Positions 3,723-61,266 of a stretch of DNA of 64,000 nt are shown here, piece by piece. Position 1 is the first letter of the stretch. Each line of letters starts with the position of its first letter. Origin of the DNA: Glandiceps talaboti (lineage: Eukaryota; Hemichordata; Enteropneusta; Spengelidae); assembly GCF_964340395.1 (NCBI RefSeq), contig NC_135555.1:24977725-25041724 (forward strand). The letters are read 5' to 3'. Position numbers and translations under genes: made by a program. A model generated the notes under the pieces. That model did no database searches and was not told the DNA's origin. It was given only the letters and a program-made list of their open reading frames with translations.

Positions 3723-3936
3723 ATGAGAAATACTGGTATAAATATTATATTTCTTTGGTTTATGTTGAGTAGTATTTCGATTTCATATACACATGAACGA
3801 GTAGAGCGCCAAACAAAGTCACGGAAACAACCTTGTCCACCCAACAAGTTCCTGAATACGTTAGGAGACTGTCATACTTGTAATCTGTGCAACGACCCTG
3901 GCTTTGTGACGAAAGAATCAGGATGCCAAACATGCC
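3723..3936 (+). CDS. Gene B exon 1: signal peptide and first cysteine module
   Basis: Starts [20 protein letters not shown], a short basic N-terminus and hydrophobic core. It then carries six cysteines in [15 protein letters not shown], ending GCQTC. Donor C|GTAAGT at 3937 is near-consensus. Confidence 0.75.
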
Positions 3937-6900
3937 GTAAGTACGTTGTATGTCCACAATTCTAAATAAATATGCTGTCATTTGTTTTACCTTGCTTTTC
4001 TCATGTAAGTGGATATTGAACCTAATATGGGGCAACTACATACATAGATTGTTGTGTCTAAGAACTTAGTTCACGCCAGCCATGTTTTAAGTTAATGTTT
4101 ACAAATCAATGGCGGCCTGTGATCTTACATGTACATAGTCTACCAATCTGAGACAAAACGTTAACTTCATACCGTTCAACATCGACCACCTGTTGAGTTC
4201 ATATTTTAACCATCCTCTGCATAGACTTGTTATTTCCATGTAAGACCCATTAAGGTATGTTACCACAAGTATAAAACTGTCTTAGATGACACAATAATGT
4301 ATTGACAGCGTTCCTCTGTTATTTTGAATTGTTCAATGTTGTCATGGTACCATATTGTCACTACATTGACTCGAAGTCCAGGTCAACTGAACGATAGTAC
4401 GGTGGTTTACCGGGCAATTTGTAAGGGTCAAACTAAACATGGAAATCTGTATAACGAACTCTCGAAGTACCCACGTATGTAGACGTACGTACTTTGAAGA
4501 TTCGAATGTTTTTACGATTAATGATATAAAGAACGACGATAGTTGATTAGGGGTTAATACTTTATACATAATAAAATACTACTTTATAAAATGCTGGGCT
4601 AGGGCGATGTACGTAGTACTATAATTCCTGCATTCTGTATCAACAAATTAAAATTAGTTCTATCAAACATGGTTATCGTCAGTTGTGTCTCTTAGATATC
4701 ATTTCCGTTCCGTTGATTAATAGGTGTAATGACAAGATCAATATATATATATATATGTATGTATGTATGTATATATATATATACATAAGTGTATATATAT
4801 ACACTTAGGGTGTAATATTACATGCTATATACATCAAGTTTTAAATACATTCAGACAGCAACGTCTACTAGCCTCTTGTAATTCATTTAAGTATGTGCCA
4901 ATTTTATAATAAATTATTGCTATTGCTATTTTTTTATTTTATTACTATTTCATTAACTTTTTTCTTTTTTATCTTTAATTCTTAATTTTTTTATGTATAT
5001 GACATACTTTAAGTTTCTTTGGAATCATTACGTGTTCGAATAAATTATTATTGAAATATGAACTCACAGATTTGTCCATCCATTTGGTCAATAGGTAAAT
5101 GTCCGGAGGGTCAATTCTTTCATCCCCATGTCAAGGAATGCCATTCATGTGTAGCATGTGTTGCTATCAAAAGTCCGATTATACGGAAGTCTAATGGCTG
5201 CAAACAGTGCACACAAGGTGAGTTGTACAACCGACATTTGTAATAAACTGACATTTGTCATAAACCGTCGACATTTGTATTAAACTTGACGACAATTGCT
5301 ATAAATTGCCGATATTTGTAATAAACTGACGATATTTGTGTAAGTTATATGAAACGAGGCGTGTCCAAACATAGTTGTATATCTTATACTAATACCACAA
5401 CTCCTTTAGTAACGAAACATAGTTGTATATCTTATACTAATACCACAGCTCCTTTTGTTGCCGAACATAGTTGTATATCTTATACTTATACCACAGCTCC
5501 TTTTGTGACGATGATTTGATGATATTCATATAATTACATTCCTATCTCTTATTTTAACATCTACACTCGCATTTAAACTCAAACCAGGCCACTTTGGTCA
5601 GTTATCAGGGGCAACGTGGAGTGAACAATAAAGTGAAATTGATTTAACAAGGTTCAATAGGGGTTTGAGATTGACTTATAAGGGAAGTTTTGAAATGAAG
5701 GAGTGTTTTCCTCAATCAGTATGATGAAAATACAATGATCATATGATTACTCTCGTCCCCCTAAATAAATTGTGTAACTTTAGACATTTTAAGTCGAAAT
5801 TAACACTGAGTGTCCTTTAAAAATCTGACAATGTTCATTTCAAATGCAAATAATACTCGTTACCTACTCATCTCAAATTATACATAAACCATAACCCATC
5901 ATTGTATTATATAGAGAGGGTGTCGAGTTCTTTAAACTAAGTTACCTAATATTCAGAGTGAATTCGTTATCCAGCTTATTGACTTATAACGAACATGAAT
6001 ATAATGTATGTGTTTGAATTATTCTTATAATTGTTGTTCTAAAGGTACGTCGATACCAACACTACAACCAACGATGGGAATTCAGACTACCACAGTTTCC
6101 AATGAGCCCAAATCTGATAATCAACAAAGTGCAACTAAGCATGAAGGCAGCGCGAACGACAAATTGGTCAAGGGACATGATAATGTGAATTTACAGGCAT
6201 CCCATCCAGGTATGTATGTATGTATGTATGTATGTATGTATGTATGTATGTATGTATGTATGTATGTATGTATGTATGATGAAGAAGTATTAAGCATATA
6301 ATGATCTCATCAGTAATATGCAAATTAGGTGTAAAATTAGGTCAAAAATCTCAGTACTTTGTCAATGAGACTGAATCTTGGTGAGATGTTTCTAAAAGTG
6401 TTATAGCAACAAGACCACGCCCATAGCAACAGCCAAATAATCACGTATATTGCGAAGATAAGAGGATTAATAGACAAATGAATAAACATTTAAAAATGTA
6501 TGCAAATGTGCCTAGCAACAAGACCACGCCCATAGCAACAACCAAATGATCGCGTATATCGCAGTGATAACAAGTATGGTTGGATAGGCAACTGGATAGT
6601 CATTCAGCAATGAACACTTATACCTAACATGGATCAGCATATGGATAAACATTTTTAAAAACTGTACAGTTGTGCTACAACACCATTGGCGGTATTTTCA
6701 ATTGTGACATTTGTATCAATAATCATTTTGATAATTAATGAGGTAATATCTTTTGAATACGAGGTTTAAATTTCAGATAATTTAGTGCATGTATTGATGG
6801 TAAAGAAGTATACGTGTCCTTTGGAGCTTGATGTTGTAACTTATAAGCTAGCTATATGGTTCAATTGTATAATCAATTATTTTTTAATAATTAGGCAATA

Positions 6901-7353
6901 TGTTAACTATACAACCTTCAAATTTCATTAATTTTTCAATTAAGTGGTACATTATGTATTGCATTCCAACAATGTGTGTATGCCTAGAAAACTATAATAT
7001 TATCCCTTATGGTATAAGATGAATATTATATCTTTTGCAGATGGTATTATAGGAGCGTCCGTTACATTAAGTCTAGTACTTACTGGTGAAGTTCTTCTCA
7101 TCTTTGTCCTTGTAACTCTATTAATCGTTGCCATTACCAAATGTACGAAACAGCATACAAATACAGGTTATACACGACCAGATAAACCAATATATAATAA
7201 AGGTACACAATAATATTTTTATTAATTACTCACAGCACATAGACTCACAAACGCCTACGCCAAAACCAATATATAATAAAGGTACACAATAATATTTTTA
7301 TTAATTACTCAAAGCACATAGACTCACAAACGCCTACTCATTTTATCTATGTA

Positions 7354-7431
<78 letters not shown>

Positions 7432-7948
7432 CCTCTGTCTGTCTGTCTGTCCCTGTCTGTCTGTCCCTGTCTCTACATTTGACTGACCAACCGACGGACG
7501 CATAGAGCACCACATAGGGTATATAGACGAGTCAGTTGGTCACGTGTACATTTGAATTAAGGTCAAAGTTGTGTATCAACACAACCTTCCAGACTCACTT
7601 ACCAATCAAACATATTAATCTATTAGATTGGGTGTGTTGCTATGATACACCGGGAGACTCTTCATGGACTAACAGGTAAAGTTGACCGTGGTCAAATCTG
7701 TCCAGCAATGAAATGAGGTGTGTTCGAGTTGCAGCAGTTTGTAAATAAAAATTGTTATTTCCTCCAATTTGACAGTTAATGCTGTTGATCCAGTACATGG
7801 TAAGGAAGACACGCATATACATGGAAGAATCGACATCATACATTCACCAATTCAAGATGGCCACCCTCCAGGAGATGCGCCTGACGACTGCCATATACAT
7901 AATGATTTGCAATGTGCTCAATTGTGTGATAAAGTGACGACTGTTTAG
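3723..7948 (+). CDS. Gene B: TNF-receptor-superfamily-like type I membrane protein, five exons
   Basis: Exons 3723-3936, 5095-5217, 6045-6209, 7041-7202 and 7776-7948 join in phase 1 at every junction to 837 nt (278 aa plus stop). Residues 1-21 look like a signal peptide. CRD1 has Cys38, 50, 53, 56, 68 and 71. CRD2 has Cys74, 87, 90, 93, 107 and 110. The spacing C-x11/12-C-x2-C-x2-C-x11/13-C-x2-C resembles the compact modules of Fn14, BCMA and TACI-type receptors. A Thr/Ser/Asn-rich stalk (113-167) and one membrane helix (about 177-200) follow. The tail contains [14 protein letters not shown] and no death domain. The start is the first ATG; the frame is open upstream but has only a GTG there. 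Likely a surface receptor; the ligand is unknown. The exon model is by eye. Confidence 0.72.
5095..5217 (+). CDS. Gene B exon 2: second cysteine module
   Basis: Acceptor ..caatag ends at 5094, donor GTGAGT at 5218. It encodes [18 protein letters not shown] and the remaining cysteines of one complete six-Cys module. The pattern PEGxFF..[11 protein letters not shown] is also in gene C exon 2, which fixes the homology. Confidence 0.78.
5226..5345. repeat. Degenerate approx. 24-bp repeats
   Basis: Five imperfect copies around gacatttgtaataaact, starting just inside gene B intron 2, within 10 bp of the exon 2 donor. Confidence 0.6.
5366..5512. repeat. 48-bp tandem repeat, three copies
   Basis: Units begin near 5371, 5419 and 5467 with atagttgtatatcttatact and differ at a few bases. 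Located in gene B intron 2. Confidence 0.9.
6045..6209 (+). CDS. Gene B exon 3: extracellular stalk
   Basis: Acceptor ..ttctaaag ends at 6044. It encodes a cysteine-free Thr/Ser/Gln/Asn-rich linker ([10 protein letters not shown] ... VNLQASHP). The end VNLQASHP matches VNFEASHS in gene C exon 3. The donor is the first unit of a (GTAT)n tract. Confidence 0.75.
6210..6278. repeat. (GTAT)n microsatellite starting at the exon 3 donor
   Basis: About 17 uninterrupted GTAT units begin at the first intron base, so the genuine donor CAG|GTATGT is followed by many TAT|GTATGT decoys. Confidence 0.95.
6405..6680. repeat. Degenerate approx. 106-bp duplication in gene B intron 3
   Basis: The phrase caagaccacgcccatagcaa occurs near 6410 and 6516, followed in each by an ATAAACATTT-containing segment. 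About two imperfect copies. Confidence 0.6.
7041..7202 (+). CDS. Gene B exon 4: transmembrane exon
   Basis: Acceptor tcttttgcag ends at 7040, donor G|GTACAC at 7203. It encodes the membrane helix ([20 protein letters not shown]), then ITKCTKQ and a short cytoplasmic stretch. The helix contains one Glu. The exon's 3' end and donor are duplicated downstream. Confidence 0.72.
7184..7338. repeat. 79-bp direct duplication spanning the exon 4 donor
   Basis: The segment beginning aaaccaatatataataaagg (7184) recurs at 7263 with only a few changes. The copy includes the last exonic bases and the GTACAC donor. Confidence 0.92.
7347..7470. repeat. (CTGT)n microsatellite
   Basis: About 30 CTGT/GTCT units with a few CCCTGT interruptions, in gene B intron 4. 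The minus-strand Asp-Arg-Gln-Thr frame across it is a shadow. Confidence 0.95.
7776..7948 (+). CDS. Gene B exon 5: cytoplasmic tail and stop
   Basis: Acceptor ccaatttgacag ends at 7775. Phase 1 gives [20 protein letters not shown], then [20 protein letters not shown], ending DKVTTV and TAG at 7946-7948. The alignment of HPPGxAPD[DN]xHI with gene C supports frame and exon. An alternative terminal exon is not excluded. Confidence 0.68.
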
Positions 7949-10482: not shown

Positions 10483-10678
10483 ATGTTCAACATTCCAAAG
10501 ACATTAATATTAGTTTTGACAATTTTCTGTGATACGGCGATGGTGGCAGTGCCAGTGTCTACCAGACGATCTGTGTGTCCTTTAGGAAAATACCTCAACG
10601 ACTTTGGGGATTGTGCTCCATGTAGACTCTGTAAGAAACCAGGTTTTACAGAGAAACAAGCTGGTTGTGCTACATGTT
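10483..10678 (+). CDS. Gene C exon 1: signal peptide and first cysteine module
   Basis: ATG at 10483. The module reads CPLGKYLNDFGDCAPCRLC and closes GCATC. Donor T|GTAAGT at 10679. Spacing is identical to gene B exon 1. Confidence 0.77.
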
Positions 10679-13600
10679 GTAAGTATTTGATGTAATCTGA
10701 ACTATGTTGTGGAATAGCGCTAAGACTAGAATCCGGGCGATTGGGGAGTTTATAATTTGATTTCCACTCTAAATAACGATCGTGAGTTTAAAGGCCCCCC
10801 CCCCTCCATCCATCCACATGGATTCCAGACTAGTTGTACACAGATATGTCATTACTTTAACAATGTCTATTTTTGTTACTTGTGTTACGATCCAGAAAGC
10901 TAAGATCCAGGAGCTAACAACAGCGTGATCTAATAATGTGTTGATTTATCTACTAAAATCCTGTATTAATTACATTTATCTTTAGTAGCTAACAACTATT
11001 GTCAAGTGTTTTGATTAAACAACATCGATTAGTTCTTGTAAACAAGATAACTTGTTGATTATCGAATTCAAATTACTCTCCATTTTAATAAATAATTGTT
11101 TTCCCACACCACACTTAATGACTGAAAAGTATGGTGTTAGGAGAAAGTTTGGATGTGAATGCTATGTTTTAAACAAATGGTAAATTGTATTGAGGAATGG
11201 TATTTTGAACTTAATACAGTGTTTTCAATGAATAAAATATTACATGTATGCAAAGCTATCCGTACGGACAAACAAAAACAACAACAAAAGAACTTGTATA
11301 TAAACTGTAGATTTAATAATCGAAAATTATTTCTAAAGTTACAAAATAAATTATTTCACTTACGATCATTCGAATGTAACCGAACCAAATTTTCTGATGA
11401 AACGTTTAGTACATACTGCTACCCTACAACCGCTAATCAAGTGCCTACAGCATGGCTGCTACTCAGGCTCCTCGCCAACACATGTACTGGAGTTTACTGC
11501 AAATTTGGCGTTCTTTCCCCTTTTCCCTTAGAATTTTGACGTTAGCGTAGTCCAAGGTATAACTTGAGTCAAGGTTGTGACTTTAGAGAGGTCATTTTAC
11601 GAGTAATAAAACATTATTAATAGAGAATCGAAGTTACAGTTTACCATGATATCACATTACGTACACAGGCGCTGTTACCTTTGTTCATTGTGTTTGTGTC
11701 CGCCATATTGAGTATGTACGATTGTTAGTAGTTATAACAAGACAATTTATGTCAAAGTCCAGTAAATAAAGATCCACAGCTATTAAACACAGGTTGTCAG
11801 ACAATCCTAGTAGTCCAACAAATACAATCAACGTGTGGCATTATTGCATGGCCACATCTATTTCCCTTTAGGTCCACAATACACACAGATAATACTTGGT
11901 CCTGTACGAAATGTGTGGTTTGTTGTAGCAACGTGTGACGCGGTGCCGTTTGTTGTAGCAACGTGTGACGTGTGTCATATATAAACAATGTATGATACAA
12001 TATACTATACTTGTATCATTGCTGTGACGTATTGTTTGTTTAACGTGATTTGTGTTTTCAAGTAGCACCACTGTAACTATTGTAAACCACTACACTACCT
12101 TCGTTACGACAACGCCATCGGGGTAAAATTATAGTTTGGCTTGCTAGAATGGCAATACCGTATTACTTTTATAAAATACTAACTAGCAATGATACTAACT
12201 AACAAATTACACTAAATAGCAAATCATACTTACTAGCAAATCATACTAACTAGCATATGATATTAACTAGCAAATGATACTAACTAGCAAATCATACTAG
12301 CAATGATACTAATTAGCAAATGACACTAACTATAGCAAATCATACTAACTAGCCAATCATACTAACTAGCAAATGGCACTAATTAGCAAATGAAACTAAC
12401 TAGCAAATCATACTTCACAAGTGCAAATAACAGCATCAACAGTGAGGGGAAGTGCCAGGAAAGGGGGGGGGGGTATTCCCGTTATTTGACTATAGGTATA
12501 TGTGCCATACTTTGGAGTGTGTTTTCTAGCCCTTTGGTCTGAAATAGGGTTTGTTGGTTTTTCTAACAGAAGAGTCTAAAATGTGGTTCACACTACAATA
12601 TTTTCGATTTTTCCTTGGTCTAAAATGTGGTCCATTGTCTACCAACTCACAACTATGCCATTAATTGTCCCAAAATGTTGCCTCCTGGAGTGAAAAATAC
12701 AAGTGTGAAAACTACATTTGCGATCTACCATTTCTTTAATATGGAACTACTAAAATGTATTTAGGTCTAAAATTTGGTTTTGTAAAAACCTGTAATAGTC
12801 TGAAATAGGTGTTTGTTTTTGGTCAAAATAGGTCTAAAATGGGGTCTGGGTTTGGCAGTGATGTTCGCATACCCCTACCAGAGCTGGCCACTGCTACCCC
12901 CACACTGACCTGTGCCTTTAATATGCCATTCATTTACAAACTAGAGGGGGGGGGGGGGGTGTTCAGACGATGTGCATGGGTTGAAATTGAATTGGGCGAA
13001 TAAGCTTAAGGTAAAAGCAAATCCTTTCAAATATTAAAGTGTATAGCCATTAACTGAACGGATGTGGACCAACTTGAACTATTGTTTTATCTGAAAATTA
13101 AATATTAACATAAAACTCACTTAGTATTATAATTGCCTTTATATAGTTCTTCACATGAACATAAATAAAAGACAAACGTCCAGACATGGTCTATGTCTAT
13201 TGAGTTACCAACAACCCCCATAAAAAACACATTATATGGCACATGTCACTTCAGTTACCAACAACCGTTATCCGAGAGTTCACATAATGTGTTTTGATAT
13301 AGTGTTTACATAGTAGTATTTTAAAAGCATAATGAATTTGACTACAGCCAATTTGAATCCTGCAGTGGCAACTCCTCCAGTTCACGTATCGAAATATGAA
13401 TGTGAGAAAGGATATTTCTTTGAACCCCGACTGAAAGAATGTCATTCTTGTGTTGCTTGTTCTGACAGTAAGGATCCACGTATACGAATGGAAAATGGGT
13501 GCCTGCAGTGTGAGAAAGGTGCGTTGAAAAATATCTACCACCTAAATAATTGGTCAAAAGAAATATTGATTGAATGTGCCACAAAGAATTAACGACTGGT

Positions 13601-16600
13601 AAACAGGGGAATGAAACAAACTATGAATTGGTGACCCGACGGTTCGTTTTTACATTGACATAACTTTGTTCATAATGTAGAGAAGCGCTTTAGAATAATA
13701 TAATGAGGTCAGATTATTTTTCAGATATTGTAAAATTAAATTTGACATTTGGGAATTGTCCCACGAGTGGATAGTAGTCCAAGTTTTGTAGAATTAAAAT
13801 TAAGTGCTACAACATAAAGAATTTTCTATGGTTGTCTAGATAAAGCTCAAACGAGGACGACGCTTGAACCGACAGAAAGAGACTATCAGCCTACCACAGT
13901 GCCGACAATTATCATAGTAACTAAAGAAGACACAGGCATTGATTCAATCACCAAACCAAGGGATGTCAACTTTGAAGCTTCACATTCAGGTAAATCACTG
14001 GTAGTCGGACGATGGGATCGGGTATTGGGTTACACGTTTAGGTAAATCATTGGTAGTCACACGATGGGGTCGGGGTTTGGGTTACACGTTCAGGTAAATC
14101 ACTGGTAGTCACACGATGGAGTCGGGCATTGGGTAACACGTTTAGGTAAGTCACTGATAGTCACACGTTGGGGTCGGGGGTTTGGGTTACACGTTAAGGT
14201 AAATCACTGGTAGTCCGATGGGGTCGGGTATTGGGTTACACGTTTAGGTAAGTCACTGGTAGTCACACGATGGGGTCGGGGATTGGGTTACACGTTTAGG
14301 TAAGTCACTGGTAGTCACACGATGGGGTCGGGGATTGGGTTACACGTTTAGGTAAGTCACTGGTAGTCACACGATGGGGTCGGGCATTGGGTTACACGTT
14401 TAGGTAAGTCACTGGTAGTCACACGATGGGGTCGGGGATTGGGTTACACGTTTAGGTAAGTCACTGGTAGTCACACGATGGGGTCGGGGATTGGGTTACA
14501 CGTTTAGGTAAGTCACTGGTAGTCACACGATGGGGTCGGGTATTGGGTTACACGTTTAGGTAAGTCACTGGTAGTCACACGATGGGGTCGGGCATTGGGT
14601 TACACGTTTAGGTAAGTCACTGGTAGTCACACGATGGGGTCGGGGATTGGGTTACACGTTTAGGTAAGTCACTGGTAGTCACACGATGGGGTCGGGGATT
14701 GGGTTACACGTTTAGGTAAGTCACTGGTAGTCACACGATGGGGTCGGGTATTGGGTTACACGTTTAGGTAAGTCACTGGTAGTCACACGATGGGGTCGGG
14801 CATTGGGTTACACGTTTAGGTAAGTCACTGGTAGTCACACGATGGGGTCGGGGTTTGGGTTACACACGTGTAAATCACTGGTAGTCACACGATGGGGTCG
14901 GGCATTGGGTTACACGTTTAGGTAAGTCACTGGTAGTCACACGATGGGGTCGGGTATTGGGTTACACGTTTAGGTAAGTCACTGGTAGTCACACGATGGG
15001 GTCGGGCATTGGGTTACACGTTTAGGTAAATCACTGGTCACTGGTAGTCACACGATGGGGTCGGGTATTGGGTTACACGTTTAGGTAAGTCACTGGTATT
15101 CGGACAATGGGGTCGAGGATTAGATTACACATTCAAATAAATCACTGGTAGTCACACGATGGGGTCGGGCATTGGGTTACACGTTTAGGTAAGTCACTGG
15201 TAGTCACACGATGGGGTCGGGCATTGGGTTACACGTTTAGGTAAGTCACTGGTAGTCACACGATTGGGTCGGGGTTTGGGTTACACACGTGTAAATCACT
15301 GGTGGTCACACGATGGGGTCGGGTATTGGGTTACACGTTTAGGTAAATCACTGGTAGTCACACGATGGGGTCGGGGATTGGGTTACACGTTTAGGTAAGT
15401 CACTGGTAGTCACACGATGGGGTCGGGTATTGGGTTACACGTTTAGGTAAGTCACTGGTAGTCACACGATTGGGTCGGGGTTTGGGTTACACACGTGTAA
15501 ATCACTGGTAGTCACACGATGGGGTCGGGCATTGGGTTACACGTTTAGGTAAATCACTGGTAGTCACACGATGGGGTCGGGGATTGGGTTACACGTTTAG
15601 GTAAGTCACTGGTAGTCACACGATGGGGTCGGGCATTGGGTTACACGTTTAGGTAAGTCACTGGTAGTCACACGATGGGGTCGGGGGTTGGGTTACACGT
15701 TTAGGTAAATCACTGGTAGTCACACGATGGGGTCGGGCATTGGGTTACACGTTTAGGTAAATCACTGGTAGTCACACGATGGGGTCGGGCATTGGGTTAC
15801 ACGTTTAGGTAAGTCACTGGTAGTCACACGATGGGGTCGGGGGTTGGGTTACACGTTTAGGTAAATCACTGGTAGTCACACGATGGGGTCGGGGATTGGG
15901 TTACACGTTTAGGTAAGTCACTGGTAGTCACACGATTGGGTCGGGTATTGGGTTACACGTTTAGGTAAGTCACTGGTATTCGGACAATGGGGTCGAGGAT
16001 TAGATTACACATTCAAATAAATCACTGGTAGTCACACAATGGGGTCGGGCATTGGGTTACACGTTTAGGTAAGTCACTGGTAGTCACACGATGGGGTCGG
16101 GTATTGGGTTACACGTTTAGGTAAGTCACTGGTAGTCACACGATTGGGTCGGGTATTGGGTTACACGTTTAGGTAAGTCACTGGTAGTCACATGATGGGG
16201 TCGGGTATTGGGTTACACGTTTAGGTAAGTCACTGGTAGTCACACGATGGGGTCGGGGTTTGGGTTACACACGTGTAAATCACTGGTAGTCACACGATGG
16301 GGTCGGGCATTGGGTTACACGTTTAGGTAAGTCACTGGTAGTCACACGATGGGGTCGGGCATTGGGTTACACGTTTAGGTAAGTCACTGGTAGTCACACG
16401 ATGGGGTCGGGCATTGGGTTACACGTTTAGGTAAGTCACTGGTAGTCACATGATGGGGTCGGGCATTGGGTTACAGGTTTAGGTAAGTCACTGGTAGTCA
16501 CACGATGGGGTCGGGTATTGGGTTACACGTTTAGGTAAATCACTGGTAGTCACACGATGGGGTCGGGCATTGGGTTACACGTTTAGGTAAGTCACTGGTA

Positions 16601-19600
16601 GTCACACGATGGGGTCGGGTATTGGGTTACACGTTTAGGTAAGTCACTGGTAGTCACACGATGGGGTCGGGGATTGGGTTACACGTTTAGGTAAATCACT
16701 GGTAGTCACACGATGGGGTCGGGTATTGGGTTACACGTTTAGGTAAGTCACTGGTAGTCACACGATGGGGTCGGGCATTGGGTTACACGTTTAGGTAAAT
16801 CACTGGTAGTCACACGATGGGGTCGGGCATTGGGTTACACGTTTAGGTAAATCACTGGTAGTCACACGATGGGGTCGGGCATTGGGTTACACGTTTAGGT
16901 AAATCACTGGTAGTCACACGATGGGGTCGGGCATTGGGTTACACGTTTAGGTAAATCACTGGTAGTCACACGATGGGGTCGGGCATTGGGTTACACGTTT
17001 AGGTAAATCACTGATAGTCACACGTTGGGGTCGGGGGTTTGGGTTACACGTTAAGGTAAATCACTGGTAGTCCGATGGGGTCGGGTATTGGGTTACACGT
17101 TTAGGTAAATCACTGGTAGTCACACGATGGGGTCGGGGATTGGGTTACACGTTTAGGTAAGTCACTGGTAGTCACACGATGGGGTCGGGGATTGGGTTAC
17201 ACGTTTAGGTAAGTCACTGGTAGTCACACGATGGGGTCGGGCATTGGGTTACACGTTTAGGTAAGTCACTGGTAGTCACACGATGGGGTCGGGGATTGGG
17301 TTACACGTTTAGGTAAGTCACTGGTAGTCACACGATGGGGTCGGGGATTGGGTTACACGTTTAGGTAAGTCACTGGTAGTCACACGATGGGGTCGGGTAT
17401 TGGGTTACACGTTTAGGTAAGTCACTGGTAGTCACACGATGGGGTCGGGCATTGGGTTACACGTTTAGGTAAGTCACTGGTAGTCACACGATGGGGTCGG
17501 GTATTGGGTTACACGTTTAGGTAAGTCACTGGTAGTCACACGATGGGGTCGGGGATTGGGTTACACGTTTAGGTAAGTCACTGGTAGTCACACGATGGTG
17601 TCGGGTATTGGGTTACACGTTTAGGTAAGTCACTGGTAGTCACACGATGGGGTCGGGCATTGGGTTACACGTTTAGGTAAGTCACTGGTAGTCACACGAT
17701 GGGGTCGGGGTTTGGGTTACACATGTGTAAATCACTGGTAGTCACACGATGGGGTCGGGCATTGGGTTACACGTTTAGGTAAGTCACTGGTAGTCACACG
17801 ATGGGGTCGGGTATTGGGTTACACGTTTAGGTAAGTCACTGGTAGTCACACGATGGGGTCGGGCATTGGGTTACACGTTTAGGTAAATCACTGGTAGTCA
17901 CACGATGGGGTCGGGTATTGGGTTACACGTTTAGGTAAGTCACTGGTATTCGGACAATGGGGTCGAGGATTAGATTACACATTCAAATAAATCACTGGTA
18001 GTCACACGATGGGGTCGGGCATTGGGTTACACGTTTAGGTAAGTCACTGGTAGTCACACGATGGGGTCGGGCATTGGGTTACACGTTTAGGTAAGTCACT
18101 GGTAGTCACACGATTGGGTCGGGGTTTGGGTTACACACGTGTAAATCACTGGTGGTCACACGATGGGGTCGGGTATTGGGTTACACGTTTAGGTAAATCA
18201 CTGGTAGTCACACGATGGGGTCGGGGATTGGGTTACACGTTTAGGTAAGTCACTGGTAGTCACACGATGGGGTCGGGTATTGGGTTACACGTTTAGGTAA
18301 GTCACTGCATGGTAGTCACACGATTGGGTCGGGGTTTGGGTTACACACGTGTAAATCACTGGTGGTCACACGATGGGGTCGGGTATTGGGTTACACGTTT
18401 AGGTAAATCACTGGTAGTCACACGATGGGGTCGGGGATTGGGTTACACGTTTAGGTAAGTCACTGGTAGTCACACGATGGGGTCGGGGATTGGGTTACAC
18501 GTTTAGGTAAGTCACTGGTAGTCACACGATGGGGTCGGGTATTGGGTTACACGTTTAGGTAAGTCACTGGTAGTCACACGATGGGGTCGGGCATTGGGTT
18601 ACACGTTTAGGTAAGTCACTGGTAGTCACACGATGGGGTCGGGTATTGGGTTACACGTTTAGGTAAGTCACTGGTAGTCACACGATGGGGTCGGGGATTG
18701 GGTTACACGTTTAGGTAAGTCACTGGTAGTCACACGATGGTGTCGGGTATTGGGTTACACGTTTAGGTAAGTCACTGGTAGTCACACGATGGGGTCGGGC
18801 ATTGGGTTACACGTTTAGGTAAGTCACTGGTAGTCACACGATGGGGTCGGGGTTTGGGTTACACATGTGTAAATCACTGGTAGTCACACGATGGGGTCGG
18901 GCATTGGGTTACACGTTTAGGTAAGTCACTGGTAGTCACACGATGGGGTCGGGTATTGGGTTACACGTTTAGGTAAGTCACTGGTAGTCACACGATGGGG
19001 TCGGGCATTGGGTTACACGTTTAGGTAAATCACTGGTAGTCACACGATGGGGTCGGGTATTGGGTTACACGTTTAGGTAAGTCACTGGTATTCGGACAAT
19101 GGGGTCGAGGATTAGATTACACATTCAAATAAATCACTGGTAGTCACACGATGGGGTCGGGCATTGGGTTACACGTTTAGGTAAGTCACTGGTAGTCACA
19201 CGATGGGGTCGGGCATTGGGTTACACGTTTAGGTAAGTCACTGGTAGTCACACGATTGGGTCGGGGTTTGGGTTACACACGTGTAAATCACTGGTGGTCA
19301 CACGATGGGGTCGGGTATTGGGTTACACGTTTAGGTAAATCACTGGTAGTCACACGATGGGGTCGGGGATTGGGTTACACGTTTAGGTAAGTCACTGGTA
19401 GTCACACGATGGGGTCGGGTATTGGGTTACACGTTTAGGTAAGTCACTGGTAGTCACACGATTGGGTCGGGGTTTGGGTTACACACGTGTAAATCACTGG
19501 TGGTCACACGATGGGGTCGGGTATTGGGTTACACGTTTAGGTAAATCACTGGTAGTCACACGATGGGGTCGGGGATTGGGTTACACGTTTAGGTAAGTCA

Positions 19601-22600
19601 CTGGTAGTCACACGATGGGGTCGGGTATTGGGTTACACGTTTAGGTAAGTCACTGGTAGTCACACGATTGGGTCGGGGTTTGGGTTACACACGTGTAAAT
19701 CACTGGTAGTCACACGATGGGGTCGGGCATTGGGTTACACGTTTAGGTAAATCACTGGTAGTCACACGATGGGGTCGGGGATTGGGTTACACGTTTAGGT
19801 AAGTCACTGGTAGTCACACGATGGGGTCGGGCATTGGGTTACACGTTTAGGTAAGTCACTGGTAGTCACACGATGGGGTCGGGGGTTGGGTTACACGTTT
19901 AGGTAAATCACTGGTAGTCACACGATGGGGTCGGGGATTGGGTTACACGTTTAGGTAAGTCACTGGTAGTCACACGATTGGGTCGGGTATTGGGTTACAC
20001 GTTTAGGTAAGTCACTGGTATTCGGACAATGGGGTCGAGGATTAGATTACACATTCAAATAAATCACTGGTAGTCACACGATGGGGTCGGGCATTGGGTT
20101 ACACGTTTAGGTAAGTCACTGGTAGTCACACGATGGGGTCGGGTATTGGGTTACACGTTTAGGTAAGTCACTGGTAGTCACACGATTGGGTCGGGTATTG
20201 GGTTACACGTTTAGGTAAGTCACTGGTAGTCACACGATGGGGTCGGGTATTGGGTTACACGTTTAGGTAAGTCACTGGTAGTCACACGATGGGGTCGGGG
20301 ATTGGGTTACACGTTTAGGTAAGTCACTGGTAGTCACACGATGGGTTCGGGGTTTGGGTTACACGTTTAGGTAAGTCACTGGTAGTCACACGATGGGGTC
20401 GGGTATTGGGTTACACGTTTAGGTAAGTCACTGGTAGTCACACGATGGGGTCGGGGATTGGGTTACACGTTTAGGTAAATCACTGGTAGTCACACGATGG
20501 GGTCGGGTATTGGGTTACACGTTTAGGTAAGTCACTGGTAGTCACACGATGGGGTCGGGCATTGGGTTACACGTTTAGGTAAATCACTGGTAGTCACACG
20601 ATGGGGTCGGGCATTGGGTTACACGTTTAGGTAAATCACTGGTAGTCACACGATGGGGTCGGGCATTGGGTTACACGTTTAGGTAAATCACTGGTAGTCA
20701 CACGATGGGGTCGGGCATTGGGTTACACGTTTAGGTAAATCACTGGTAGTCACACGATGGGGTCGGGCATTGGGTTACACGTTTAGGTAAATCACTGGTA
20801 TTCGGACAATGGGGTCGAGGATTAGATTACACATTCAAATAAATCACTGGTAGTCACACGATGGGGTCGGGCATTGGGTTACACGTTTAGGTAATTCACT
20901 GGTAGTCACACGATGGGGTCGGGCATTGGGTTACACGTTTAGGTAAATCACTGGTAGTCACACGATGGGGTCGGGCATTGGGTTACACGTTTAGGTAAAT
21001 CACTGGTAGTCACACGATGGGGTCGGGCATTGGGTTACACGTTTAGGTAAATCACTGGTAGTCACACGATGGGGTCGGGCATTGGGTTACACGTTTAGGT
21101 AAATCACTGGTAGTCACACGATGGGGTCGGGCATTGGGTTACACGTTTAGGTAAATCACTGGTATTCGGACAATGGGGTCGAGGATTAGATTACACATTC
21201 AAATAAATCACTGGTAGTCACACGATGGGGTCGGGCATTGGGTTACACGTTTAGGTAAGTCACTGGTAGTCACACGATGGGGTCGGGCATTGGGTTACAC
21301 GTTTAGGTAAATCACTGGTAGTCACACGATGGGGTCGGGCATTGGGTTACACACCTGTAAATCACTAGTAGTCACTTGATGGGGTCGGGCATTGGGTTAC
21401 ACATTTGACTAGGTGGCTATGAAGGGTGTCAGGATATAGACGTCAAATCCTTCATTGTTAATTATATAAATGATAAATCAAGTATGATATTTCTATTTTA
21501 AAAAGTTGGAATACGTAGATTTGATTTAATTTTATCATTTTATGATCAAGATAAACATATTAACTTCTTTAAATCTCTTTGGATCTTCTTCAAGTCAAAG
21601 TGGTCTGTCGTATTAACACTGTTGTAAATCCAACTTATAACATTCTGGTATGTAGGACAATATTATTTAGAGTCAAAGTTCAAAATGAACTATCGCAACA
21701 TTATTAGTGAATTTGTGATTAAAATATATAGAAATGACTAATGAGAATTTCGTTATATCAGTGGTGGAAAATTTTTTAAAAGCGCCGGGAAATCTTCTCC
21801 ATATAACATTTATACTTAAAGGGACACAATCTGAGTTTATACATATTTATGTGTAGTTTTTTTAATGCATAGTTAATAGGTACTCACATTATTGTACCTA
21901 CTGAAGCATACTTAACCACCAATTGACTGAACTCAAACCTGGTATTAAGATAAATGATCTGATGACGTAATTTATCATACGTATAAAAATGTTCAGGTAA
22001 TCCCTTCTATTCAATCAACTATTCTTACAATGGCGGAAAACAATCGTAATGTTACAGAAAACATGCACGGACATTAACATACTGGAATGTTCTAACAATG
22101 TCAGAAGACAAATCATAATTTTATAGAAAACATGCACGGACATTAACATACTAGAATGTTCTAACAATGTCAGAAAACAATCATTATTTTATAGAAAACA
22201 TGCACGGACATTAACATACTGGAATGTTCTAACAATGTCAGAAGACAAATCATTATTTTATAGAAAACATGCACGGACATTAACATACTGGAATGTTCTA
22301 ACAATGTCAGAAAACAATCATTATTTTATAGAAAACATGCACGGACTTTAACATACTGGAATGTTCTAACAATGTCAGAAGACAATCATAATTTTATAGA
22401 AAACATGCACGGACATTAACATACTGGAATGTTCTAACAATGTCAGAAGACAATCATTATTTTATAGAAAACATGCACGGACATTAACATACTGGAATGT
22501 TCTAACAATGTCAGAAAACAATCATTATTTTATAGAAAACATGCACGGACTTTAACATACTGGAAATGGATGTTCTAACAATGTCAGAAAACAATCATAA

Positions 22601-25600
22601 TTTTATAGAAAACATGCACGGACTTTAACATACTGGAATGTTCTAACAATGTCAGAAGACAATCATTATTTTATAGAAAACATGCACGGACATTAACATA
22701 CTGGAATGTTCAAACAATGTCAGAAAACAATCATTATTTTATAGAAAACATGCACGGACTTTAACATACTGGAAATGGATGTTCTAACAATGTCAGAAAA
22801 CAATCATAATTTTATAGAAAACATGCACGGACTTTAACATACTGGAATGTTCTAACAATGTCAGAAAACAATCGAGTAAAAAGCTTATAAACTCAGCTTG
22901 TGTCACTTTAACCATAGTATATAGTAGGATGCCATCCCCGTCATAAAAACAATAAAAAGTTCTTCAAGCCATCTGTTAATAGACTAAGCATAGACTTGAG
23001 TATATTGTACTCAATGTGCTGTGGTGTTGGTGTGGCCATGTGTGTCTGTTAACGAATTTGGTGTTAGTTTGGTAGTGGGATGAGGAGAACACATTTTCGA
23101 ACGTTCAAAGATCTTCAATTAAGGGGTAGACCATTCGATATCCTGGGGGGGGGGGGCTTGGAAGATTGGTGGAGAGTCATTATATTTTTCCCCACCTGCT
23201 TGCCTGAGAATTATTTTTTTTCTCCTTCGCCTATGCTGGCAACTTTTTTTTTCTTTGCTTCTTGAGATATCCGGATTTTTTTTACGTCAATGTTGAACAC
23301 CTACATTTGTTGCCACAATTTTCTGTTTGGTTTTCGCACAGGGTAATACAGAGAGTAAAAAGATGCTGTTCTATTTTATTTAGAAAACTACATATTTCAT
23401 ACATGTTTGATTTTCAATTAAATAAACATCATTGACAGTTTTTTATGCCATGGTATGATGACACACTGATAATACAAATCGGAAACTTGATAACTTGATT
23501 GGTGAGCTCAGACATTCAGATAGACCGGTCAGTTTCTCCAGCTTGGGGGGTGGGGGTGGTGGTGTCAGTGTTTTTTTCCATTGGGCCAACAAAAAGTCAC
23601 TGACCCCCGTGAATAAAGTTTCATAGCATCTGACAGAGTGTGTGTGAATGGGGGGGGGGGGATTCTAGGTGGTCTCCCCCCATGAAGCCCTGGAGGATTT
23701 TTACTTCTAAAGGCAATGTTTAGGCTATTCACAGACACTTTCAGACAAAATAATTTACAAACTTTACAAGACAGCTCTAACATGTAAAAAGCAACTACAT
23801 GAGGTTGAAACATTTTAAAAATAAAGTTTCATAGCATCTTGACACTAAGAGGTGGAGGAAAGAACTTTGATTTGAGACTAGAACATGTTTACCTCTAGAA
23901 GCTCTGGAGGATTTTTTACTCTTAAAGCCCATGTTCAGGCTATTAACAGACACTTTCAGACAATAATTTGCAAGCTTTACAAGACAGCTCTAACAATTGT
24001 AAAAAGCAACTACGCATGGTTGAAACATTTTTTAAATAAAGTTTCATAGCATCTTGACAGTAAGAGGTGGAGGGAAGAACTTTGATTTGAGGCTTGGACA
24101 TGTCTACCTCTTATGGGGGGGGGGGGGGGTCCTGGGGGGTCTCCCCTAGAAGCTTTTCAAGTTGTTTTTTTTACCAATTTTGGTGAATATTATTGTTGGT
24201 TTAACGAATGAGTGGCCTCTGGGGTGATGGAGTCCAAGGGGTTCCCCCTGCAGGATCTGTAGTTTTTTGTTTCTATTTAGGCAATGTTTAGGTTATTCAT
24301 AGCCTCTGAGATATATATTGCCAAGCATCGAAAAGCTAAAGTAAATATAACCTTTTTAAATAAGTTTTCCATGTTATAAAAGTGGGCCTGTAATATTGGT
24401 ATAGGGGCATTGATATTGCATGTATAGTTAAGTTGCTGATGTGTTAGAGCACTTTAGGAGGTCATACCTAGTGTACAATAGAAACTTGAATTTGAGTTGT
24501 GGTGTCGATACATGTAGTGTCTGAAATAGGAAGTATATCATCCCTTTTGACACTTTCATACTGAAGAGACTAGAACAATTTAGATTAAGTTCTTTTATAA
24601 ACTATCCAATAGTATGAAGATTACCATTACAAAACCTTCAAGTTCACTTTTGCCCCAAAGTGCAAGATAAGTGAAGCACTGATTGTGAAACAGCCAAACA
24701 CTTACATGGCATGTTCTGTAACTAGTGTGGTAGCTAGGTAATACATGTATTATATGTATAATTTTATGTATAGTTATGTTTGAACCCTTACATTAAGTAA
24801 TATTTAAACCATTTATGAAAGAAACAGAGACAAGAACAAATATATATATGTGCCACAGGCTAACGAAACTGACTGGTCCCTAACATGTGTTTGAAACTGT
24901 TTGTCATGATTTGACAAGTGTCCTGGTGGTTGGAGAGGTATGAGCAGGTTGAACAGTATACTCGAACCTGTGCATCATTTCCCTGCCAAGACATTTTTTT
25001 CGAGCAGCAGTGGTCCATCTTTTTTTTCTATCACCCACTCATATCCGGATTTTTTTTCAAGCAAATCCACTTGCCATCTTTTTTTCCCGAAATCTTCCAA
25101 GCCCCCCCCCCCCAGGATATCAAATGGTCCACTCCTAATTCACTTTGTCCACCACTGATAAAACGAAGTGCATTATGGTTGAAATACCTGGTAAAGACCA
25201 GCAACATAGCGTAATTTACCATCTAGAATGGTTTACTTCAAAGATTGGGACTCCTTTCTAAACTGTGTGTAAACTGTCAGCCTATGTAAGAATGGTAAAT
25301 GTCTGTCTATTCTCTTCCTTAGTTAACATAGGGAGGGGTGGCGTATAGACGTTTAATGTCCAAAACAATAGATACTACGTACTGTGAAAATTAATATACA
25401 GTATTTTAATAACCGCCATCTGTAATACTATGCTTTGTTACAGACGAAAATAACAGAAAGATGACCGTTTGGTTATTTGCTGTAATTTCATTTGAAGGTT
25501 TAGCTATTATTGGACTCTGTGTGACATTAATAATAGTAATTAAGAAGTGTCGTCGACTTGGTGCTAATGGTGGAAATTATGGCAATATTGTTAATATTCC

Positions 25601-25679
25601 CCTACAAGACCGCCATCCTCCGGGTAAAGCCCCAGATAACTATCATATTGAGGATGGTGTTGGAGAAACCTGGTTGTAG
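10483..25679 (+). CDS. Gene C: TNF-receptor-superfamily-like type I membrane protein, four exons
   Basis: Exons 10483-10678, 13381-13518, 13840-13989 and 25444-25679 join in phase 1 to 720 nt (239 aa plus stop). Residues 1-23 form a signal peptide (MFNIPKTLILVLTIFCDTAM). CRD1 has Cys32, 44, 47, 50, 62 and 65. CRD2 has Cys73, 86, 89, 92, 106 and 109. The stalk is about 112-161 and the membrane helix about 170-193, followed by KKCRR. The tail has IPLQDRHPPGKAPDNYHIED. Unlike gene B, helix and tail share one exon. Intron 3 is 11.45 kb and mostly repeats. No death domain; the PxQD core resembles TRAF-binding PxQ motifs (weak). Expected at the cell surface; ligand unknown. Confidence 0.72.
10679..13380 (+). 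other. Gene C intron 1 (2.7 kb)
   Basis: Contains an 18-bp-type repeat at 12172-12416. A G/T-rich repetitive stretch at 12440-13000 repeats the phrase ggtctaaaat and holds poly-G runs; it looks like an old interspersed repeat. A 126-residue open frame at 11159-11539 has no recognisable domain. Confidence 0.5.
12172..12416. repeat. Degenerate 17-18-bp minisatellite
   Basis: About 13 imperfect copies of actaactagcaaatcat, with indels. Confidence 0.85.
13381..13518 (+). CDS. Gene C exon 2: second cysteine module
   Basis: Acceptor actcctccag ends at 13380, donor GTGCGT at 13519. It encodes YECEKGYFFEPRLKECHSC and the rest of a six-Cys module, closely matching gene B exon 2. The acceptor has a weak pyrimidine tract, but phase and homology fit. 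Confidence 0.75.
13840..13989 (+). CDS. Gene C exon 3: stalk
   Basis: Acceptor ggttgtctag ends at 13839. It encodes DKAQTRTTLEPTERDYQPTT and a second half ending VNFEASHS. Thr-rich, no cysteine. Its donor, CAG|GTAAAT, is the first copy of the 52-bp array motif. Confidence 0.74.
13981..21408 (+). repeat. 52-bp minisatellite (about 142 copies), each unit with a 5' splice-site consensus
   Basis: The period is 52 bp (for example cacgtttagg at 14291 and 14343). The unit reads ..cacgtttag|gtaagtcactgg.. then tagtcacacgatggggtcgg and ..ttgggtta. TAG|GTAAGT (or GTAAAT) recurs in nearly all units, in gene orientation. A recurrent variant (near 15093, 15979, 17939, 19081, 20021, 20790 and 21161) reads cacattcaaataaatcactg. 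That is almost the exon 3 end plus donor, cacattcag|gtaaatcact, with GG changed to AA. A 1142-bp higher-order repeat is visible from the cacgatggtg marker (17591, 18733). The whole array lies in gene C intron 3. Confidence 0.95.
21409..22025. other. Unique AT-rich intron sequence
   Basis: Separates the 52-bp and 68-bp arrays in gene C intron 3. Nothing recognised. Confidence 0.5.
22026..22873. repeat. 68-bp minisatellite, about 12 copies
   Basis: The unit contains aacaatgtcagaaaacaatc, catgcacggacattaacata and ctggaatgttct. Some units carry a 6-bp insertion (ctggaaatggatgttct). Located in gene C intron 3. Confidence 0.93.
23085..25160. mobile_element. Candidate non-autonomous element bounded by G-rich inverted repeats
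   Basis: At 23128-23170 the order is gaccattcgatatcctgg, an 11-G run, then cttggaagat. Near 25095-25135 the reverse complement appears: atcttccaag, a C run, then aggatatcaaatggtc. Each arm continues inward with T-rich stretches and an ATCCGGAT word. About 2 kb lies between, with no coding capacity and an internal approximately 210-bp triplication. Target-site duplications were not established, so the element type is uncertain. Confidence 0.45.
23612..24330. repeat. Approx. 210-bp tandem triplication
   Basis: Copies begin with aataaagtttcatagcatct at 23612, 23820 and 24035. They share gctctggaggattttt-like and ctattcacagacactttcag-like blocks. The third copy is the most diverged and includes poly-G runs. 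Confidence 0.8.
24331..25443. other. Rest of gene C intron 3
   Basis: Includes the right arm of the candidate element (to about 25160) and unique AT-rich sequence up to the exon 4 acceptor. No gene. Confidence 0.5.
25444..25679 (+). CDS. Gene C exon 4: membrane helix and cytoplasmic tail
   Basis: Acceptor ctttgttacag ends at 25443. Phase 1 gives Asp then ENNRKMTVWLFAVISFEGLA, a long hydrophobic segment, KKCRR, and the tail to GVGETWL and TAG. It combines what are exons 4 and 5 in gene B. Confidence 0.76.
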
Positions 25680-25990
25680 CTATCGTGGTGTCTGAGTCGT
25701 ATGGTAAACAAGAACATTGCCAGCATTGACAGAACATTACTAGCAGAAAATGCCGTTGTTTTACTCGGACAACTGTAACAACGTTTACTTTTGTCAGTCT
25801 AAAGACTATACGGGTTAGATATTTTGCGACTTTCAATCACTCAGTGGTTTATGAAGAAGAGCAACCGATAATAACATTACAATATGCTGATTTATTAAAA
25901 ACTTTTTTTAAAAGATCGCTTGAACCCAAATATTATTAGCGTTACGCCGTTAACGTTGTAGCTGATCTGACGAGTAGTGCTTGGAAGCGT
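25680..25990. other. 3' flank of gene C
   Basis: Presumed 3' UTR and flank. No clear AATAAA in the first 200 bases; tttattaaaa occurs near 25890. Nothing else seen. Confidence 0.4.
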
Positions 25991-25992
25991 GT

Positions 25993-28900
25993 ACCCCTCT
26001 AACCCTTTGACTGTATCCCTGTAACCCTTTGACTATATCCCTGCAATCCTTTGACTGTATCCCTCTAACCCTTTGACTATATCCCTGCAATCCTTTGACT
26101 GTATCCCTGTAACCCTTTGACTGTCCCTGTAACCCTTTGACTGTATCCCTGTAACCCTTTGACTGTATCCCTGTAACCCTTTGACTGTATCCCTATAACC
26201 CTTTGACTGTATCCCTATAACCCTTTGACTGTATCCCTGTAACCCTTTGACTATATCCCTGTAACCCTTTGACTATATCCCTGTAACCCTTTGACTGTAT
26301 CCCTCTAACCCTTTGACTATATCCCTGCAATCCTTTGACTGTATCCCTGTAACCCTTTGACTGTCCCTGTAACCCTTTGACTGTATCCCTGTAACCCTTT
26401 GACTGTATCCCTGTAACCCTTTGACTGTATCCCTATAACCCTTTGACTGTATCCCTATAACCCTTTGACTGTATCCCTGTAACCCTTTGACTATATCCCT
26501 GTAACCCTTTGACTATATCCCTGTAACCCTTTGACTGTATCCCTCTAACCCTTTGACTATATCCCTGCAATCCTTTGACTGTATCCCTGTAACCCTTTGA
26601 CTGTATCCCAGTAATCCTTTGACTGTATCCCTCTAACCCTTTGACTATATCCCTGCAATCCTTTGACTGTATCCCTGTAACCCTTTGACTATATCCCTGC
26701 AATCCTTTGACTGTATCCCTGTAACCCTTTGACTGTATCCCTGTAATCCTTTGACTGTATCCCTCTAACCCTTTGACTATATCCCTGCAATCCTTTGACT
26801 GTATCCCTCTAACCCTTTGACTATATCCCTGTAACCCTTTGACTGTATCCCTGTAATCTTTTGACTATATCCCTGCAATCCTTTGACTGTATCCCTGCAA
26901 TCCTTTGACTGTATCCCTGTAACCCTTTGACTATATCCCTCTAACCCTTTGACTATATCCCTGTAACCCTTTGACTGTATCCCTGCAATCCTTTGACTGT
27001 ATCCCTGTAACCCTTTGACTGTATCCCTGTAACCCTTTGACTGTATCCCTGTAATCTTTTGACTATATCCCTGCAATCCTTTGATTGTATCCCTGTAACC
27101 CTTTGACTGTATCCCTGCAATCCTTTGACTGTATCCCTGCAATCCTTTGACTGTATCCCTGCAATCCTTTGACTGTATCCCTGCAATCCTTTGACTGTAT
27201 CCCTGCAATCCTTTGACTGTATCCCTGCAATCCTTTGACTGTCCCTGTAACCCTTTGACTGTCCCTGTACCCCTTTGACTATATCCCTGTAACCCTTTGA
27301 CTATATCCCTGTAACCCTTTGACTGTATCCCTGTAACCCTTTGACTGTCCCTGTAACCCTTTGACTGTATCCCTGTAACCCTTTGACTGTATCCCTGTAA
27401 CCCTTTGACTGTATCCCTGTAATCCTTTGACTATATCCCTGTAACCCTTTGACTATATCCCTGTAACCCTTTGACTGTATCCCTGTAATCCTTTGACTAT
27501 ATCCCTGTAACCCTTTGACTGTATCCCTGTAATCCTTTGACTGTATCCCTGTAACCCTTTGACTATATCCCTGTAACCCTTTGACTATATCCCTGTAACC
27601 CTTTGACTGTATCCCTATAACCCTTTGACTGTATCCCTGTAACCCTTTGACTGTATCCCTGTAACCCTTTGACTGTATCCCTGTAACCCTTTGACTGTAT
27701 CCCTGTAACCCTTTGACTGTATCCCTGTAATCCTTTGACTGTATCCCTGTAACCCTTTGACTATATCCCTGTAACCCTTTGACTGTATCCCTGTAACCCT
27801 TTGACTGTATCCCTGTAACCCTTTGACTGTATCCCTGTAATCCTTTGACTGTATCCCTGTAACCCTTTGACTGTAACCCTTTGACTATATCCCTGTAACC
27901 CTTTGACTATATCCCTGTAACCCTTTGACTGTATCCCTATAACCCTTTGACTGTATCCCTGCAATCCTTTGACTGTATCCCTGTAACCCTTTGACTGTAT
28001 CCCTGTAATCCTTTGACTATATCCCTGTAACCCTTTGACTATATCCCTGTAATCCTTTGACTGTATCCCTGTAACCCTTTGACTGTATCCTTGTAACCCT
28101 TTGACTATATCCCTGTAACCCTTTGACTGTATCCTTGTAATCCTTTGACTGTATCCCTGTAACCCTTTGACTATATCCCTGCAATCCTTTGACTGTATCC
28201 CTGTAACCCTTTGACTGTATCCTTGTAACCCTTTAACTGTATCCCTGCAATCCTTTGACTGTATCCCTGTAACCCTTTGACTATATCCTTGTAACCCTTT
28301 GACTGTATCCCTGTAACCCTTTGACTGTATCCCTGCAATCCTTTGACTGTATCCCTGTAACCCTTTGACTGTATCCTTGTAACCCTTTGACTGTATCCCT
28401 GTAATCCTTTGACTGTATCCCTGTAACCCTTTGACTGTATCCCTGTAATCCTTTGACTGTATCCCTGTAACCCTTTGACTGTATCCCTGTAACCCTTTGA
28501 CTGTATCCCTGCAATCCTTTGACTGTATCCCTGTAACCCTTTGACTATATCCTTGTAACCCTTTGACTGTATCCCTGCAATCCTTTGACTGTATCCCTGT
28601 AACCCTTTGACTGTATCCCTGTAACCCTTTGACTGTATCCTTGTAACCCTTTGACTGTATCCCTGCAATCCTTTGACTGTATCCCTGTAATCCTTTGACT
28701 GTATCCCTGTAACCCTTTGACTATATCCCTGCAATCCTTTGACTGTATCCCTGCAATCCTTTGACTGTATCCTTGTAACCCTTTGACTGTATCCCTCTAA
28801 CCCTTTGACTGTACCTGTAACCCTTTGACTATATCCCTGCAATCCTTTGACTGTATCCCTGTAACCCTTTGACTATATCCCTGTAACCCTTTGACTGTAT

Positions 28901-32284: not shown

Positions 32285-32481
32285 AGTAAGTAGTAAAGGT
32301 TGTTTATTATAGTGACATGTGATATACATTTTACAAATTGGCAATAACAATATCAGAAAGCAAACACATCACCCAGCCCACCGGGCTTATTAGTCACTAC
32401 AAAACTGAATTGCTCGTATAAAGCACTTAAAAATAAGGGGTGCAAAGAGGACAGTCATAACAAGTAAAGAAAAGTAACATA

Positions 32482-35407: not shown

Positions 35408-35409
35408 GT

Positions 35410-59515: not shown

Positions 59516-61266
<1,751 letters not shown>

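Follow-up and report, generated by a model that had tools for sequence, protein, structure and literature searches.

A donor-anchored 52-bp tandem array in intron 3 of a receptor-like gene of Glandiceps talaboti

The stretch analysed here, 64,000 nucleotides of Glandiceps talaboti (positions 24,977,725 to 25,041,724 of contig NC_135555.1; "the window", with positions counted from its first letter), carries a cluster of receptor-like genes that we call A, B and C. In gene C, a tandem array of 143 units of 52 bp, most of them bearing a splice donor, begins inside exon 3 and fills much of the intron that follows. We placed the exons of gene C by hand from GT-AG sites and the reading frame, which gives four in-frame exons encoding 244 amino acids, with GT-AG ends at all introns. 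On the plus strand, exon 1 (10483..10678) encodes what by eye looks like a signal peptide start and a first, TNFR-like cysteine-rich part, exon 2 (13366..13518) a second cysteine-rich part, exon 3 (13840..13989) a stalk, and exon 4 (25444..25679), the last coding exon, a hydrophobic and presumably transmembrane segment with a tail. Intron 3 (13990..25443) is 11,454 nt long, about 65% of it array, and the 3' end of exon 3 lies inside the first unit.

The array occupies 13981..21406 of the plus strand and has a GT at the donor position, in sense orientation, in 136 of its 143 units. Tandem Repeats Finder gives a period of 52 bp, 143.1 copies, 92% matches and a score of 12299, and aligning the region to the cyclic consensus divides it into 143 complete units and a 21-base stub. 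Unit 1 (13981..14032) consists of the last 9 nt of exon 3 (CACATTCAG) and the first 43 nt of intron 3, with the real donor, CAG|GTAAAT, at GT 13990-13991. The tandem repeat crosses the exon-intron boundary, as its start at 13981 and the exon end at 13989 show. The original prediction, made from the sequence, had described about 140 tandem donors beginning exactly at this boundary; the array is real and the first unit is indeed the real junction, but its start lies 9 nt inside the exon.

The same prediction held that nearly every unit carries TAG|GTAAGT, which overstates the uniformity of the array. This 9-mer is found in 84 of the 143 units (59%), followed by TAG|GTAAAT (35 units), CGT|GTAAAT (9) and CAA|ATAAAT (7); CAG|GTAAAT (one of the two being the real donor), AAG|GTAAAT and TGT|GTAAAT occur twice each, and TAG|GTAATT and CCT|GTAAAT once each. 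AG|GT is kept in 124 units, GT only in 12, and 7 have no GT, so AG|GT is lost in 19. The seven units that read CAA|ATAAAT, with AATAAA inside, have a single set of changes in common with the unit preceding them, and we use them as markers. The first of these donor-dead markers is at 15128..15147 on the plus strand (CACATTCAAATAAATCACTG), and the remaining six start at 16008, 17978, 19120, 20050, 20830 and 21194. We read them as copies of a single variant block spread by turnover. An exon-like variant, cacattcaaataaatcactg, had been singled out as matching the exon end and donor almost base for base. It is real, but it accounts for only these seven units, with their single set of changes, their lost GT and their AATAAA, and it departs from the exon junction at two positions, precisely the G|G of the junction.

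On its sense strand the 52-bp consensus carries a better donor than shuffled sequences do (P 0.0045). The real donor fits the donor consensus at 8 of 9 positions. Each unit was scored with a donor weight matrix and by the energy of its duplex with U1. Of the 142 units other than unit 1, 84 were stronger than the real donor, 1 was equal and 57 were weaker, so the claim that the real donor is outscored by most of its decoys is true by a modest majority. Pairing with the 5' end of U1 reaches -10.2 kcal/mol in 84 of the 143 units, and the real donor pairs at -8.3 kcal/mol. The donor columns show no sign of constraint and are more variable than the rest of the unit: 5 of the 9 donor columns vary, compared to 25 of the 43 others, with mean diversities of 0.124 and 0.061. 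At position +5, which ranks second in variability, 57 units have A, 85 have G and 1 has T.

Turnover of the array shows in two features: its units come in 32 different sequences, and a block of 19 units is perfectly duplicated 22 units further on. The duplication, seen here in one assembly, could also be an indirect sign of length instability. Units 1-5 differ from the consensus at 7, 4, 4, 5 and 6 positions and unit 143 at 9, while the interior mean is 2.37, that is, the end units have diverged and the inner units are homogenised. The sense strand of the array is G-rich, with a G4Hunter score of 0.72 compared to 0.00 and 0.08 in the two flanks, and has 55 GGG runs per kb and no CCC runs, a composition that could favour R-loops or G-quadruplexes.

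As far as searched, the array exists at a single locus. A 301-base query against the 590-Mb genome gave at least 39 matches, all within C8:24991714-24999130, which is 13990-21406 of the window; the search scores only the best candidates and skips common words, and its match counts are lower bounds. An exact 33-mer of the array had no match in viral contigs, and within the window the doubled unit had a single match beyond the array, a stretch of 15 bases (E 8.6). Homologous arrays elsewhere in the genome, which the original prediction had named as evidence that would point to insertion, were not found in this search. The nine exonic nucleotides are coding sequence that aligns with the paralogous gene B (EASHS compared to QASHP), and the exon lengths place the matching introns of genes B and C both in phase 1. 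Of the seven differences between unit 1 and the consensus, five also occur in the marker block (P 3e-5 if differences are placed at random; the block was chosen for the test because it had already been named), which fits unit 1 and the marker block being two relics of an older unit type. Upstream into exon 3 we found no further unit match (best cyclic identity 22/52, P 0.12). Growth of the array in place from the exon 3/intron 3 junction, as had been suggested, is well supported by these sequence comparisons within one genome assembly.

We also worked out on paper what each donor would produce. Splicing from unit 1 gives the 244-amino acid protein, splicing from unit 2 gives 186 amino acids, and splicing from any of the other 134 GT units, or retention of intron 3, gives 184 amino acids; the transmembrane segment is kept only with the unit 1 donor. 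The common end is an in-frame TAA at 14043..14045 on the plus strand (mRNA position 553, converted by hand to window coordinates), which overlaps the unit 2 donor and terminates the protein whether the intron is retained or any of the 134 GT decoys beyond unit 2 is used. The unit 2 product stops two codons later. Using an acceptor model, only 1 of the 355 AGs in the array scores at least as high as the weakest real acceptor, compared to 43 of the 212 in the rest of intron 3. We considered whether the decoys are hidden in RNA structure and rejected this, because the predicted unpaired probabilities of the donors of units 1-11 (0.39-0.65) are about those of the background (0.44), and the real donor, at 0.47, is unremarkable.

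Based on these observations, we consider it likely that the array is a donor-anchored minisatellite of the type called a mirage, which arose by duplication in place, expanded to 143 units by turnover, is near-neutral, and is spliced from its first donor. A segment astride the junction, 9 nt of exon and 43 nt of intron, would have been tandemly duplicated, and growth would have followed through repeat turnover, presumably by unequal exchange or slippage. The additional copies would be near-neutral because they lie 3' of the first donor and stay in the intron as long as that donor serves. The unit 1 donor is probably taken because it is good in itself and exon definition from the exon 3 acceptor (13840) favours the nearest good donor, and because almost no AG in the array could start another exon. 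A minor leak to unit 2 is expected; it would lengthen the mRNA by 52 nt, put exon 4 out of frame and end translation 8 nt into that exon, giving the 186-amino acid product that lacks the transmembrane segment. Most likely the array is simply spliced around; a regulatory role is neither supported nor needed.

Mirages are known from amphioxus, where a 2002 Adh paper reportedly described them. In Adh3 and the globin genes BflGb6 and BflGb9, they are described as tandem repeats that span exon and intron and leave regular splicing undisturbed, with AG/GT present in many units, though not in every one, and edges that escape homogenisation (PMC3087553). The BflGb6 arrays have 6 and 3 units, and mirages are suggested there to be possibly general in cephalochordates (PMC3087553). 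A further mirage is described in troponin C, with similar repeats in PGBD5 (PMC3902484). The gene C array has the same sequence-level features, namely a unit that crosses the exon-intron boundary, AG/GT in many units and edge units left unhomogenised. In contrast to these small unit numbers, it has 143 units over 7.4 kb, probably in another lineage: the codon use of the mitochondrial COX1 suggests an ambulacrarian code, perhaps that of an acorn worm, and points away from amphioxus, although on thin evidence. What is new here is the size and, probably, the host lineage, the kind being already known. Among the matches listed in Creative Commons-licensed PMC articles, none dealt, by title or start of abstract, with junction-spanning repeats in hemichordates or echinoderms.

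A similar case outside amphioxus is the variable number tandem repeat (VNTR) in intron 18 of human ABCA7, an Alzheimer's risk gene. It has a 25-bp unit, immediately flanks exon 18 and, according to the published description, supplies the canonical donor with its first GT; about 2% of transcripts are given as retaining one unit, a share unchanged by array length, and one allele as 9,711 bp long (PMC5954066). As in gene C, the canonical donor is within the first unit, whereas the ABCA7 repeat begins at the donor and the gene C array begins inside the exon. By analogy, ABCA7 and the amphioxus mirages are precedents for an intron that is spliced despite such an array. Two other systems are comparable. 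The intronic minisatellite CeRep25B of C. elegans is tied to splicing decisions (PMC4039745); it is enriched close to alternatively spliced regions in many genes, and the abstract names no single-gene junction anchor. In the Rogers model, introns are gained by tandem duplication of AG/GT proto-splice sites (PMC3087553), and a potato RdRp case of intron gain by AG/GT duplication is on record (PMC4974935). Such events also copy AG|GT-bearing DNA in tandem, but they create a new intron, whereas in gene C an existing one was lengthened.

The gene C array extends mirage-type junction repeats from small amphioxus arrays to one of 7.4 kb and 143 units, probably in another lineage. With 84 of 142 copies in one intron outscoring the real donor, it is also an extreme natural test of donor choice. 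Together with ABCA7, it suggests that tandem duplication over a 5' splice site is a tolerated and recurrent route to long, repeat-filled introns, and such duplication may also supply material from which new exons or introns arise.

Several points weigh against this reading. The nine exonic nucleotides agree with the consensus at only seven of nine positions, including an AG that is expected in any donor, which makes the exonic match weak on its own. Near-neutrality has to be set against ABCA7, where longer arrays are associated with reduced expression and more frequent skipping of exon 19, and where the alternative transcripts together are reported to exceed the canonical one in 90% of BA10 brain samples (PMC5954066). 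In ABCA7 the next exon (19) is skippable; that outcome is not open to gene C because its next exon, exon 4, is the last coding exon. Finally, use of the first donor is something that we infer from the sequence.

An alternative that we regard as unlikely is that the array is used in a leaky or regulated manner to make a soluble receptor, through unit 2 and later donors, through intron retention or through poly(A) signals in the marker units, with array length tuning the ratio. It would fit that all 135 GT decoys (134 giving 184 amino acids and unit 2 giving 186), as well as retention, yield proteins that lack the transmembrane segment, and that 7 of the 12 AATAAA motifs of intron 3 are in the marker units. 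ABCA7 provides a parallel, since it shows one-unit retention and expression that drops with length, but that retention is independent of array length (PMC5954066). In gene C, the outcome is set by the unit 2 TAA alone and later units change nothing in the protein; as 134 of the 135 decoys lead to the same truncated product and unit 2 adds just two residues, control through 52-nt alternative extensions, as originally proposed, is not supported. With the unit 3 decoy, 50 nt separate the stop (mRNA 553) from the last junction (603), and later units increase the distance. By the usual rule, a stop this far before the last junction invites nonsense-mediated decay. The donor columns are not conserved, and AATAAA also occurs five times in the rest of intron 3.

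It is much less probable that the array serves as a binding platform for U1, either titrating it, as the original prediction had raised, or guarding the long intron against premature polyadenylation. The stronger pairing of 84 of 143 units (-10.2 compared to -8.3 kcal/mol) would suit such a platform, but donor columns that vary more than the rest of the unit, with +5 the second most variable, and AG|GT lost in 19 of 143 units do not. The RNA nascent from one gene could also not plausibly titrate an abundant small nuclear ribonucleoprotein.

We give slightly less credence still to a pre-existing satellite or mobile repeat that inserted at the donor and carried its own splice donor with it. The junction match is only 9 exonic nucleotides, and two more large arrays in the window have donor-like motifs (44-bp unit at 38150; 24-bp unit at 35916, minus strand). 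On the other side, a foreign repeat is rejected by the failure to find any further copy in the genome, or in the viral contigs with the exact 33-mer, by the nine nucleotides being coding sequence that is aligned in paralogue B, and by unselected minisatellites that are not donor-enriched (1/16 at P<=0.05). Recursive (ratchet) splicing, in which TTTAG|GTAAGT would act as a zero-length exon and the intron be removed stepwise, has in its favour the AG immediately before GTAAGT in 84 of 143 units and can nearly be dismissed, because it needs a functional 3' splice site before each donor and the array has no pyrimidine tract and almost no acceptor-like AGs, as counted above.

Arrays also lie at other donors of the cluster. 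In gene B, (GTAT)17 (6210..6278, plus strand) begins with the very first base of the intron, at the donor homologous to that of gene C intron 3, and is unrelated to the 52-bp unit. A 79-bp, 1.9-copy repeat (7184..7337, plus) crosses the exon 4/intron 4 junction of gene B; this two-copy junction duplication has the look that a first step towards such an array would have. A degenerate array of 17-20 bp units (5229..5339, plus) begins 12 nt past the exon 2 donor. Across genes A-C, an array starts between -20 and +16 nt of 4 of the 8 modelled donors (2.0% of positions under the null, P 1.1e-5), and none of the 9 acceptors has an array within 15 nt. The range was set after the arrays had been seen, and by coverage, with 41.6% of positions 1-25700 inside an array or at most 15 nt from one, 4 donors out of 8 do not exceed expectation (P 0.44), so the association with donors is one of array starts only; both points count against the reading we favour, as do two that come from the rest of the genome.

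We sampled 180 kb, in 18 stretches of 10 kb each that were set by fixed coordinates and not selected for content, and found 40 arrays of period >=10 covering 3.5%. Two of the 40 cross a likely exon end. One (L026, 7793-8032; 104 bp x2.3) does so at an exon like that of serine/threonine-protein kinase 40 (STK40; PDB 5l2q, E 3.2e-17), and the other (L022, 7619-8009; 39 bp x9.9) at a 160-nt open exon, with ten unit copies around ...CCCAGTG|GTAAG, one of which reads GTAAT and one of which has an insertion. A third array (L029, 7425-7521) begins 9 nt past AAA|GTAAGT. Chance coverage would account for 0.7-2.8 donors if there are 20-80 per 180 kb, as we assumed, so the two that are spanned are no excess. 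In a housekeeping comparison consisting of one chaperonin gene (L039), 0 of 6 donors had an array, the nearest being about 250 nt away (compared by hand). Junction-spanning arrays thus recur in this genome, and enrichment is not implied, because two spanned donors are within the chance range.

Donor motifs as a general mark of the minisatellites of this genome were considered and rejected: among 16 unselected minisatellites of period >=10 and >=2.5 copies, a cut that the L026 array (2.3 copies) does not reach, one had a donor motif at P<=0.05 and none did at P<=0.01. Of the 13 consensus units tested in the window, 3 scored better than their shuffles (P 0.0025-0.0115). We think it doubtful that 5' splice sites recurrently seed arrays of 2-143 units, perhaps via nascent-RNA or R-loop structures, with some of these acting as length-tunable switches between membrane and soluble forms.

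Another array with a donor motif is at 38150-55377, where a 44-bp unit is repeated 393.7 times over 17 kb with CAG|GTAAGA in its sense consensus (P 0.0025). We recognised no coding exon upstream of it, and it could be a larger donor-bearing array of another gene. A 24-bp array of 65 copies at 35916-37544 has CAG|GTAATT on the minus strand (P 0.0115).

Gene B, the neighbour of gene C, spans 3723-7948 with five exons encoding 278 amino acids, and the two proteins are paralogues (BLASTP E 1e-40). Both have, by eye, a signal peptide-like start and a hydrophobic segment, along with cysteine-rich parts. Their matches to TNFR_c6 are weak (E 0.0088 for gene C and 0.048 for gene B, both below the Pfam cut-off), and "TNFR-like" seems a fair but weak label for them. 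A protein search for further paralogues, which might have provided an array-free control, gave 8 matches: 7 lie in this cluster, and the eighth, on C6, is weak (E 0.02). Gene A is partial, with exons read by eye; a tblastn search of the 20 kb upstream for its missing exons gave chance-level matches only (E >=1.7). About 310 nt past the gene C stop, possibly in or beside the 3' untranslated region, lies a 5-kb array based on 22 bp (TGTATCCCTGTAACCCTTTGAC; 25990-31056).

Elsewhere in the window, a region at about 32300-35500 on the minus strand resembles by eye a non-LTR (non-long terminal repeat) retrotransposon. At 61140-61265, directly after an (AT)n run, lies an inverted repeat, also seen by eye, that is nearly perfect and whose arms measure about 60 bp. 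A 38-bp array of near-identical units at 63660-64000 crosses the window end into L019 (1-123), for about 12 units in total.

Outside the window, some of the chaperonin exon matches at C2:26975259-26980496 lie in open frames of 815 and 822 amino acids, which exceed the needs of the exons and may reflect a stop-free intron or an intron-poor copy. Mitochondrial COX1 occurs three times, 15,435 bases apart, at C40:12741-44951, and C40 (51,222 bases) probably consists of mitochondrial genome copies joined head to tail. The COX1 reading frame has 13 TGA and 1 TGG codons, with TGA read as Trp, and lacks AAA, AGA and AGG; at its 4 ATA codons, the best PDB match (7o37) has Ile twice, Met once and Val once.

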